DNA from: Chloroflexota bacterium
GTDB lineage: Bacteria > Chloroflexota > Limnocylindria > P2-11E
Length of the DNA: 36,987 nucleotides
Reading direction: 5' to 3'
Assembly: GCA_005889405.1 (NCBI GenBank)
Contig: VBFY01000028.1
Coordinates: 1 to 36,987 of the forward strand
Positions 6,128 through 8,974 of the stretch are shown piece by piece (within the stretch, counting starts at the first letter, position 1; every line of letters starts with the position of its first letter). A program made the position numbers and the translations under genes. The notes beneath the pieces are model-generated. The model did not search any database, had not been told where the DNA came from, and was given only the letters and a program-made list of their open reading frames with translations.

Positions 6128-6166
6128 CCCGACTCTCTAATGCGGCTATGAATGGAGGAGGCCCGG

Positions 6167-8974
6167 GTGGGCGCGAAGGCGATCTGGCGTGAGGATCTCG
6201 TCACCAGCCTGCTCGCGACGCTGCTCGTCTTCGGACTCTTCCTCGATGGTTGGAACCACATCAACCTGCAGAACGGTGCGCTCGGCGGGTTCTTCACGAT
6301 CTGGCATGCGCTGCTCTACGCCGGCTTCAATGGCACCGCGCTCTGGGTCATCACACGCAACCCGCACCTCTATGACCGCGGCGCGCACCCGGCTCCCTAC
6401 TTCCACAAGTTCCTCGGGATCTCGCTTCGCTATCCACTCGCGGTCGGCGGTCTTGCGATCGCGACCGTCGCCATGTTCGGCGACATCGCCTGGCACACCG
6501 CGTTTGGCGAGGAGGCCGGCGTCGCTCGGGTCATCGCGCCGTTCCACCTCCTCCTGTTCGCCGGTGCCGCAGGTCTCGTCTCCGCGCCGCTGCGATCGGC
6601 GTGGTATGCGCCGCAGTTCTACCCGAAGACATTGTCGTTCCGCCGGATCCTGCCGCCGCTGGTGTCCCTGACGCTCGTCACCTGCGTAGCCGCCTTCATG
6701 TTCCAGTGGCTGAACGCGTTCCTCGACTGGACGCCGTCAGTGACGATCGGTCGGATCCCCGCGGAGTTCGCGAGCGACCCGCGGATCCGGGGAACGACGG
6801 AATTCGCGGGCGCGGCACGCATTCTCGTCACCAATCTCATCCTGCTCGCGCCGCTCTTCCTCGCGCTGCGCCGCTGGCGCCTACCGTTCGGGAGCGCGAC
6901 GCTGCTGTTCGTCGTGGTGAGCTTCGCCATGAGCGCCCTTTCCACCTTCGACCTCGGCGCGACGGTCGTTGCCGGTCTGGTGGGCGGACTCGTCGCGGAC
7001 GCGTTGATCGACGGGCTGCGACCCGACGATGAGCGCAGGCTCGGGTACCGCGTGGTCGCAACGGTCACGCCGCTCGCTCTCTGGTCGGCCTACTTCCTGA
7101 TCCTGATCTTCGTCTACCGGACCCCGTGGCCGTTCGACCTCTGGCTCGGAACGACCCTGCTTGCGGCGATCTCCGGTCTACTGTTGAGCCACATCGCGAT
7201 CGCTCCAGCGCTTCCAGAGTCGGTCGCCGAAACGCGCGTTCCCGTTCGCGACGACGCCGGCGCCGTGCCGGCGGTTGCGATGTCGGGACAAGGAGCGATG
7301 GATCTTGGAGGAGGGGCCGAGATGGCGGCTCCACAGCCAGCTGCTGAAAAGCGCATCAGCCGACGCGGCTTCTTGACCGGTCTGGGGATCGGGCTCGGCG
7401 CCGCAGGAGCAGCCGGCGTCGCGACCGGCGTCAGTCTCGGACGCACCGAGCTGCGCCTGTCCGCCACGACCCCGGGCAACTTCAGTCGGATGTTCCCGAA
7501 CCTGCCGCCCTTCTTCGAGGATCTCCGGCCCGGGGGCGCGACCGATCAGCTCCGCGACGCCGTGCGCGACATCGGCAAGCTCGGCGGGTTGCTCGATGCG
7601 AAGGACGCACTCGCTGCCGGTCCCGTCGCGCTCATCGCGAATGCGGCCGTGAATGGGAACGATCCGCCGACCAATCCCGACAACCCAACGCACACGGCGG
7701 GCGTGACCTTCTTCGGTCAGTTCATGGATCTCGACATCACCTTTGACAGTCGATCGACGCTCGGCGTGCCGACCGATCCGACGACGACGCCAAACGCCCG
7801 TGCCGCTGCCTTCGACCTCGATACGGTGTACGGACAAGGACCCTTCGTGACGCCATCGTTCTACGACATCGCGGATCCCGCGAAACTGAGGATCGAGAGC
7901 GGCGGCATCTTTGAGGACCTACCGCGCAACCCGGACATGACCGCGATCATCCCCGATCCGCGCACCGACCAGAACCTGATGGTCTCGGGCCTGCACTGCG
8001 CGTTCATCCGCTTCCACAACAAGACCGTCGACTACGCGCGCACGGAGCTGGGACTCATCGACCCAGCCGCCATCTTCGCGGAGGCGAAGCGCCTCGTGCT
8101 TTGGCACTACCACTGGATGATCCTGAACGAGTTCCTGCCCCTCTTCATCGGCCCGGCGATGCTGAACGACATCCTCACCAACGGCCGACGTTTCTTCCGG
8201 CCCGATATGGGCCAGGCGACGATGCCGATCGAATTCCAGGCCGCGTGCTTCCGCGTCGGTCACACGATGGTGCGCCCGTCCTACCGCGCGAACCTCAAGG
8301 GAATGGACGGCAAGCCGTTCTTTGGGTTCATCTTCGATCCCGCGCTCGGTGACATCACGCCTGGGCCCGGTCTCGATCCGGCGGATCTGCGGAGTGGCTT
8401 CCGTGCGCCGCGACGGTTCATCGGCTGGCAGACGTTCTTCGACTTCAAAGATGGCGAGGTCAAACGCAACAAGCTCATCGACAACAAGATCTCGACGCCG
8501 CTGTTCACACTGCCGCTCGGCGCGATCGCGAGCCACAAGGCGCCGATCGCGCTCATGCAGCGCAATCTGCTGCGCCACATCACGTGGTCGATGCCGTCGG
8601 GGCAATCGATCGCGCGCGACATGGGCGTCGACCTCTTGAGCGCGGGCGACCTCGACGAGCTCAAGATGTACGACATGGATCTCGAGAAGAACACGCCCCT
8701 TTTCTATTACATGCTCAAGGAGTCGGCGCTCGTCCCAAGCTCAGACATCGGCAAGAACACCGGTGGTTTCCACCTCGGACCGGTCGGAGGCCGCATCGTG
8801 GGCGAGGTCGTCATCGGTCTCCTGCAGACCGATCCTGCTTCGTACGTCACGAAACAGCCCTCGTGGACGCCAACGCTGCAGAACCCGGGCGCGGGCTTCC
8901 GCATGGTCGACTTCCTCACCTTCGCGGGCGTGGACCCAGCGACGCGGCACGCGCAGAAACCGGCGTTCGCCTGA
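6167..8974 (+). CDS. Fusion of a ~10-TM membrane domain and an animal-type heme peroxidase domain, with internal twin-arginine signal
   Basis: Start GTG 6167 is preferred because GGAGGAG sits 6 nt upstream; ATG 6152 is the alternative. Residues ~12-360 contain about ten hydrophobic helices with several membrane-proximal histidines (GWNH, TIWHA, IAWHT, APFHL). I do not know a function for this domain. A cytosolic linker leads to a twin-arginine-like motif SRRGFLTG (first Arg ~399) and another hydrophobic helix. An animal-type heme peroxidase domain (PF03098-like) follows from ~430 to the end. It has the GQFMD segment (Gln518, Asp521), the catalytic-type Arg615 in FIRFHN, and the proximal haem ligand His699 in RVGHTM. 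The distal histidine expected right after Asp521 is Leu522, and the read is unambiguous (GAT CTC GAC). Even-numbered helices put the twin-Arg inside, so the peroxidase would lie outside the cell membrane. Peroxidase homology is firm; activity is uncertain. Confidence 0.85.
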   Translation: MGAKAIWREDLVTSLLATLLVFGLFLDGWNHINLQNGALGGFFTIWHALLYAGFNGTALWVITRNPHLYDRGAHPAPYFHKFLGISLRYPLAVGGLAIATVAMFGDIAWHTAFGEEAGVARVIAPFHLLLFAGAAGLVSAPLRSAWYAPQFYPKTLSFRRILPPLVSLTLVTCVAAFMFQWLNAFLDWTPSVTIGRIPAEFASDPRIRGTTEFAGAARILVTNLILLAPLFLALRRWRLPFGSATLLFVVVSFAMSALSTFDLGATVVAGLVGGLVADALIDGLRPDDERRLGYRVVATVTPLALWSAYFLILIFVYRTPWPFDLWLGTTLLAAISGLLLSHIAIAPALPESVAETRVPVRDDAGAVPAVAMSGQGAMDLGGGAEMAAPQPAAEKRISRRGFLTGLGIGLGAAGAAGVATGVSLGRTELRLSATTPGNFSRMFPNLPPFFEDLRPGGATDQLRDAVRDIGKLGGLLDAKDALAAGPVALIANAAVNGNDPPTNPDNPTHTAGVTFFGQFMDLDITFDSRSTLGVPTDPTTTPNARAAAFDLDTVYGQGPFVTPSFYDIADPAKLRIESGGIFEDLPRNPDMTAIIPDPRTDQNLMVSGLHCAFIRFHNKTVDYARTELGLIDPAAIFAEAKRLVLWHYHWMILNEFLPLFIGPAMLNDILTNGRRFFRPDMGQATMPIEFQAACFRVGHTMVRPSYRANLKGMDGKPFFGFIFDPALGDITPGPGLDPADLRSGFRAPRRFIGWQTFFDFKDGEVKRNKLIDNKISTPLFTLPLGAIASHKAPIALMQRNLLRHITWSMPSGQSIARDMGVDLLSAGDLDELKMYDMDLEKNTPLFYYMLKESALVPSSDIGKNTGGFHLGPVGGRIVGEVVIGLLQTDPASYVTKQPSWTPTLQNPGAGFRMVDFLTFAGVDPATRHAQKPAFA

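Follow-up and report, generated by a model that had tools for sequence, protein, structure and literature searches.

How does a protein work in which a polytopic membrane domain is joined to an animal-type haem peroxidase, and in which the distal histidine of the peroxidase is replaced by leucine? Such a protein is encoded in the window, that is, the whole stretch of 36,987 nucleotides from a Chloroflexota bacterium that was analysed.

Layout and recurrence of the fusion gene

Read as an open reading frame, the gene is a single uninterrupted frame from 6152/6167 to the stop at 8974. The GTG at 6167 is favoured as the start codon because the Shine-Dalgarno sequence GGAGGAGG lies 5 nt upstream of it. 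The features referred to below are the following (+, forward strand).

6154-6161, +: Shine-Dalgarno sequence GGAGGAGG of the fusion gene (direct reading)
6167-8974, +: fusion gene, 935 amino acids, with membrane domain, linker, predicted Tat helix, and haem-peroxidase-like domain (open frame, fused orthologues, dN/dS)
6167-7216, +: predicted 10-helix membrane domain, residues 1-350 (family collected by HMM; hydropathy and positive-inside pattern)
6245-6307, +: first putative metal-site motif, D27-x3-H31 ... T44-x2-H47, CuC-like (invariant; motif common to PmoC/AmoC)
6482-6547, +: second putative metal-site motif, D106-x3-H110 ... E116 ... P125-x-H127, CuD-like (invariant ligands)
7307-7324, +: internal Shine-Dalgarno sequence GGAGGAGGGG and in-frame ATG, residue 386 (direct reading; also in orthologue L004)
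7358-7438, +: predicted Tat motif within the protein, SRRGFL (398-403), with helix 11 of apparently low hydrophobicity (398-424), then RTELR
7472-8956, +: haem-peroxidase-like domain, residues 436-930 (PF03098 and lactoperoxidase matches)
7730-7732, +: codon CTC of Leu522 at the distal-histidine position (Leu in 4/4 of the fusion clade, His in 18/18 aligned relatives)
7961-7963, +: Arg599, aligned with the catalytic distal Arg (DPRTDQ versus DVRSNE in lactoperoxidase; invariant)
8111-8113, +: His649, gained where all relatives have Gln (the clade departs from the family in this invariant column and in just one other)
8261-8263, +: His699, proximal haem ligand (lactoperoxidase alignment; invariant)

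The linker that follows residues 1-350 is variable. A first-pass annotation of the sequence had described one frame with about ten membrane helices and a peroxidase, and this is borne out by ten hydrophobic peaks, alternating loop charges, and the PF03098 match (E=3e-16). Leu522 (GAT CTC GAC, 7727-7735), Gln518, Asp521, and the proximal His699 had likewise been read correctly; the Tat motif at 398-403, the pairing of D27 and D106 with histidines, and His649 had been overlooked.

The fused frame is uninterrupted in two further Chloroflexi MAGs, at 90% (L004) and 68% (L005) identity. In the genome G163 (L006), the two halves are separate ORFs overlapping by 14 nt, which could be taken to mean that an assembly or frameshift error has joined two genes in the window, an artefact that the first-pass annotation had itself considered. 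As an explanation this is next to negligible, and it was dismissed: the fusion is free of stops in three separate assemblies, and both halves are under purifying selection. Relative to the window, dN/dS is 0.14-0.33 for the membrane half and 0.08-0.26, the lowest of the protein, for the peroxidase half; with values of 0.08-0.33 in both halves, the fusion protein is evidently maintained. In L006, the peroxidase ORF opens with a Tat signal peptide and begins at the spot matching the internal Shine-Dalgarno/ATG of the window. Since GGAGGAGG plus an in-frame ATG is kept at 7307-7324 in both the window and L004, a free Tat-peroxidase may be a second product, with the internal ATG as its possible start.

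The four members (window, L004, L005, and L006) form a clade with a support of 100/100 in the tree. The nearest stand-alone relatives, from Nostoc (L007), Nonomuraea (L101), and the Chloroflexota genome G217 (L009), are 52-57% identical over the peroxidase domain and all carry the distal His. In G250, a sister species, the gene is reduced to a broken 5' end adjoining the same downstream response-regulator gene; the gene is therefore dispensable, which weighs against the main reading given below. A contig-end fragment in a distant Chloroflexota family (G223, C78:3679-4023, L023) shows 76% identity to the fusion C-terminus and may reflect transfer or contamination. No relatives were found in viral contigs or phages.

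Active-site residues of the peroxidase-like domain

The domain matches PF03098 (animal haem peroxidase) with 59.4 bits against a Pfam cut-off of 25, and lactoperoxidase was the only match when the fusion protein was compared with PDB sequences. In the peroxidase-family alignment, the proximal His699, the distal Arg599, and Gln518 are all invariant. Arg615, to which the first-pass annotation had assigned the catalytic role, was dismissed; two fused orthologues have Leu in its place and the relatives vary there, and the residue that the alignment matches to the catalytic Arg of lactoperoxidase is Arg599. Asp521 and Asp523 are both retained in the fusion clade, the former being one of the two carboxylates of the covalent haem links. 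The position of the other, a Glu that provides one covalent haem link in the mammalian enzymes, is occupied by Gln602, which is not peculiar to the fusion because the Nostoc relative with a distal His has Gln there as well.

What is absent is the distal His, the acid-base catalyst of the PF03098 family. All four clade members have Leu522, and only two columns that are invariant among the relatives are altered in the clade, namely, His522 to Leu and Gln649 to His; the rest are kept. A sporadic change to Leu, of the kind that close homologues with His would indicate, was dismissed, since Leu is fixed across the fusion clade. This conservation supports the earlier suggestion that the protein is not a classical peroxidase. 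In the literature searched, nothing specific was found on the evolution of haem peroxidases or on distal-His mutants.

The membrane domain and its resemblance to PmoC/AmoC

No match to the membrane domain was found in Pfam, NCBIfam, or PDB sequences. By HMM, 71 ORFs of its family were gathered, which are mostly stand-alone and occur in many Chloroflexota families, Deinococcus, Paenibacillus, and Nonomuraea; the genome of the window encodes two stand-alone paralogues. At three loci (L058, L075, L097) the stand-alone gene is present as two tandem copies, and at three others (L069:356-2449, L070:6372-8417, L080:6033-7565) the outer loop that connects helices 5 and 6 contains an inserted PD40 beta-propeller. 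AlphaFold2 models of the membrane and peroxidase halves, built from shallow alignments, were unusable (pLDDT of 47 and 29, respectively), and a Foldseek search with the low-confidence membrane model returned nothing meaningful. A DUOX- or NOX-like membrane domain was considered and dismissed, being without Pfam support.

The residues D27, H31, T44, W46, H47, Y51, D106, W109, H110, E116, P125, and H127 are invariant in the family alignment. The ligand string DHHDHH (D27, H31, H47, D106, H110, H127) is identical in 46 distinct full members. It is missing from five degenerate ones, of which three are fused to a histidine kinase, TIR, or HTH domain. This joint retention or loss of six ligands is the pattern expected of a metal site. 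The degenerate members comprise a 1373-amino acid protein (L059:7121-11242, G288) in which the membrane domain, interrupted by a PD40 propeller, is combined with GAF and a HisKA_3 kinase, and those at L085:1767-3266, L086:5778-7352, L083:4454-5923, and L084:5819-7285, one being a TIR fusion and one an HTH fusion. Averaged over 47 sequences, the number of Lys plus Arg per loop is 0.9, 4.4, 0.5, 4.3, 2.2, 2.0, 0.5, 3.4, and 0.6, the loop with 2.2 carrying more acid. By this alternation, the six ligands would all lie at the outer edge of the membrane, with both the N-terminus and the linker on the inside.

The ligand pattern recalls PmoC/AmoC, in which the CuC ligands are Asp156, His160, and His173 (PMC7584546) and the CuD ligands are Asn227, His231, and His245 (PMC12576850). 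The AmoC peptide used for comparison was checked against the PDB, where 14 PmoC/AmoC chains matched, with D156/H160/H173 at the expected places. The CuC pattern Asp-x3-His...His is present in the family as D27/H31/H47, and the CuD pattern Asn-x3-His...His corresponds to D106/H110/H127, with Asp replacing Asn. The family consensus reads DGWAH...FFTPWHAxLYSG and DxxWHTxFGxE...SPxHL, that of AmoC reads DGTWH...DFTPSHIIEFYLSY and NEWGHTFWFxEE...APLHW. The double motif occurs in 56 of 71 family ORFs, in 9 of 10 AmoC proteins, and in none of 1553 other ORFs or 162,000 shuffles; as the pattern was written after both families had been viewed, the informative number is its rarity elsewhere. Thus, of the suggestion that the four membrane-edge histidines (H31, H47, H110, H127) could bind a metal or haem, the metal part is supported by their conservation far above chance, and haem is disfavoured because the six-residue pattern fits the copper ligands of PmoC/AmoC better.

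With HMMs built without AmoC, the top non-member was an AmoC protein (E=0.002), and with an HMM of TM1-4, searched against real, reversed, and shuffled sequences, three AmoC proteins were the top non-self matches (E=6e-4, 0.16, and 0.56). Profile-profile comparison of the family alignment A3 with AmoC gave scores of 34.9-36.2 (E=4-7e-4), compared with a mean of 15.4, an SD of 3.0, and a maximum of 25.7 for 60 polytopic decoy families. Against the main reading, a trimmed 47-sequence alignment scored only 19.2, which is within the decoy range, so that the HMM and profile scores exceed the decoys in most, not all, settings. The alignment register varies as well, one hhalign run pairing the second motif with CuC and another pairing both motifs in order. 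PF04896, the Pfam model of AmoC, had no match in the genome of the window (E up to 10) or in family members; weak matches in G071, G347, and G378 were set aside, these sequences being without the double metal-site motif. None of the A and B genes of an xmoCAB operon adjoin the fusion gene, whose neighbours include an ABC permease and a response regulator, and a CuMMO A subunit (AMO family) was not found in the genome of the window by a search that had no positive control. The membrane family is not a member of PF04896, because the Pfam model fails to recognise it and A/B genes do not lie alongside.

Summarizing, the membrane family and PmoC/AmoC are likely to have a metal-site architecture in common; the profiles make a good, though not conclusive, case for homology, and common ancestry is probable, albeit not proven. 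PF04896-positive AmoC genes are themselves found in three Chloroflexota genomes (L117 in G193, L118 in G231, and L119 in G233). In L117 and L119, AmoC is preceded by an alcohol dehydrogenase and followed by ORFs that, judged by eye, resemble the A and B subunits; these are apparent xmoCAB operons.

Hints of copper and redox chemistry come from neighbours of stand-alone members, which were noted at scattered loci rather than in a systematic survey. In a Chloroflexota genome, the neighbours are CopC-CopD-YtkA; in Paenibacillus and Nonomuraea, they are secreted proteins that are homologous to each other and carry H-x-HP motifs, followed by YtkA in Nonomuraea; in G318, the neighbour is a cytochrome c. 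The fusion gene itself lies among ABC peptide-transport genes, with a double receiver-GAF protein encoded downstream. In three genomes (L056, L066, L068) a membrane-family gene or fusion adjoins genes for a NarL-type histidine kinase and response regulator.

Proposed function and comparison with known systems

Dual Sec/Tat membrane proteins are characterized by an even number of helices, an RR motif, one further helix, positive charges, and a C-terminal cofactor domain (PMC5449189). The fusion protein has this layout, with ten predicted helices, SRRGFL, helix 11, and a C-terminal domain of cofactor type. The putative Tat helix is Ala/Gly-rich, has a Kyte-Doolittle value of 1.44, below 8 of the 10 other helices, and is followed by RTELR. 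Matches of Tat-family profiles to the internal motif are weak; SRR is kept in the fused orthologues, and TatC is encoded in the genome of the window. These predictions would put the haem domain outside, together with the putative metal sites.

A dual-translocon membrane metalloprotein, in which a PmoC/AmoC-like domain, probably containing copper, has a Tat-exported haem domain as redox partner, is given about an even chance of being the correct description. The PmoC/AmoC-like domain would be formed by ten Sec-inserted helices and would bear, at its extracytoplasmic edge, a pair of adjacent Asp/His metal sites, probably for copper. The eleventh helix with its twin-arginine motif would direct the folded, haem-loaded peroxidase-like domain to Tat for passage across the membrane, and the haem would end up on the side of the metal sites. 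The exchange of the distal His for Leu would deprive the domain of its acid-base catalyst in peroxide cleavage; the haem would probably be retained as redox partner for copper-site chemistry, be it as electron relay or for the handling of O2 or peroxide. A redox partner is preferred to a free-standing peroxidase because the distal His is gone and the remaining pocket is under strong purifying selection. Rather than an ordinary peroxidase, the fusion of these soil Chloroflexota is thus probably a copper-and-haem membrane enzyme of a new kind, and among the roles named by the first-pass annotation that of an oxygenase or electron-linked enzyme is preferred. A more far-reaching version can be put forward only tentatively: a single-polypeptide copper-haem membrane oxygenase, having a PmoC-like domain with two copper sites and without A/B subunits, whose haem domain would have been re-tuned from peroxidase to electron partner by His522Leu and Gln649His, and behind which would stand a widespread and as yet unnamed family of PmoC-like copper proteins with a single subunit.

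Alternatively, the protein may still be a working haem peroxidase or peroxygenase, with His649, Asp521, or Arg599 plus water in place of the distal His and with the membrane domain mainly as an anchor. The otherwise strictly conserved pocket under purifying selection, the appearance of His649 in the same clade exactly at the family Gln, and the internal start that could free a Tat-peroxidase are all in its favour. It is nonetheless unlikely: every relative sampled has the distal His, haem peroxidases that lose this residue form compound I more slowly by orders of magnitude, and a mere anchor would not need six invariant ligands. The opposite view, that the membrane domain acts alone and the peroxidase domain serves as a scaffold, inert or free of haem, starts from the same loss of the catalytic His and has a precedent in human DUOX, where an inert peroxidase-homology domain is joined to a membrane redox domain. 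This pseudo-enzyme is improbable given that the proximal His, the distal Arg and Gln, Asp521, and Asp523 are retained in the domain with the lowest dN/dS of the protein; the predicted Tat export, too, would suit a cofactor-loaded domain.

As to the membrane domain, its resemblance to PmoC/AmoC may be due to convergence or chance, the Asp/His sites binding haem, iron, or zinc instead. The dependence of the profile support on the alignment used and the missing Pfam recognition speak for this view, which is doubtful all the same: two motifs with six ligands occur in the same order and with similar spacing, flanking residues (DGxxH, FTPxH, H[ST]xF..E, [AS]PxH) are common to both families, and neither the unrelated ORFs nor the shuffles gave a match. 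It is decidedly improbable that the membrane domain senses metal, O2, or the redox state, with the haem domain as part of the sensing device. One family member is indeed fused to a histidine kinase and others to HTH or TIR, NarL-type kinase/regulator genes are neighbours at three loci, and a double receiver-GAF protein is encoded downstream of the window gene; yet the members fused to signalling domains are those that have lost the ligands, and the window protein is without a cytoplasmic signalling module. The haem-based sensor of the first-pass annotation also becomes less likely, as the kinase-fused member has lost all histidine ligands.

If the copper-and-haem reading is correct, its value would extend to the known monooxygenases. 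In pMMO/AMO, the copper site that bears the chemistry is disputed, with CuD now being favoured, and a natural single-chain family that has both ligand sets and no other subunits would be a simpler system for studying metal binding and O2 chemistry. The fusion is also a rare case in which the invariant catalytic His of an animal peroxidase has been lost and the loss then held under strong selection.

In the libraries and the literature searched, this architecture did not correspond to any described family. PmoC/AmoC (PF04896) resembles the membrane family in that D-x3-H...T-x2-H is followed by D/N-x3-H...P-x-H, both at the ends of helices and at a similar distance from each other, but differs in having about 5-6 helices instead of 10 and Asn instead of Asp in the second site; the fusion, moreover, is joined to a haem domain and has no adjoining A/B subunit genes. 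With the bacterial PF03098 peroxidases, the haem domain shares, beyond overall identity, the proximal His, the distal Arg and Gln, and Asp521, and with that of G217 (L009) also a Tat signal; these relatives occur unfused and have the distal His, whereas the fusion clade has Leu522 and His649. The known dual Sec/Tat proteins (actinobacterial Rieske, Sco3746, polyferredoxins, YkuE-like) correspond in their even helix number and RR motif, and apparently also in a weakly hydrophobic helix, positive charges, and a C-terminal cofactor domain outside; the predicted 10+1 helices and the haem-peroxidase-like passenger set the fusion apart, and PMC5449189 never mentions peroxidase. DUOX likewise has an animal-peroxidase-like domain outside a membrane redox protein, but the fusion has no Pfam match to a ferric-reductase, FAD/NAD, or EF-hand domain, and its domain order is reversed. 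From these comparisons, the kinds of parts appear to be known, while their combination and the PmoC-like single-chain family appear to be new.
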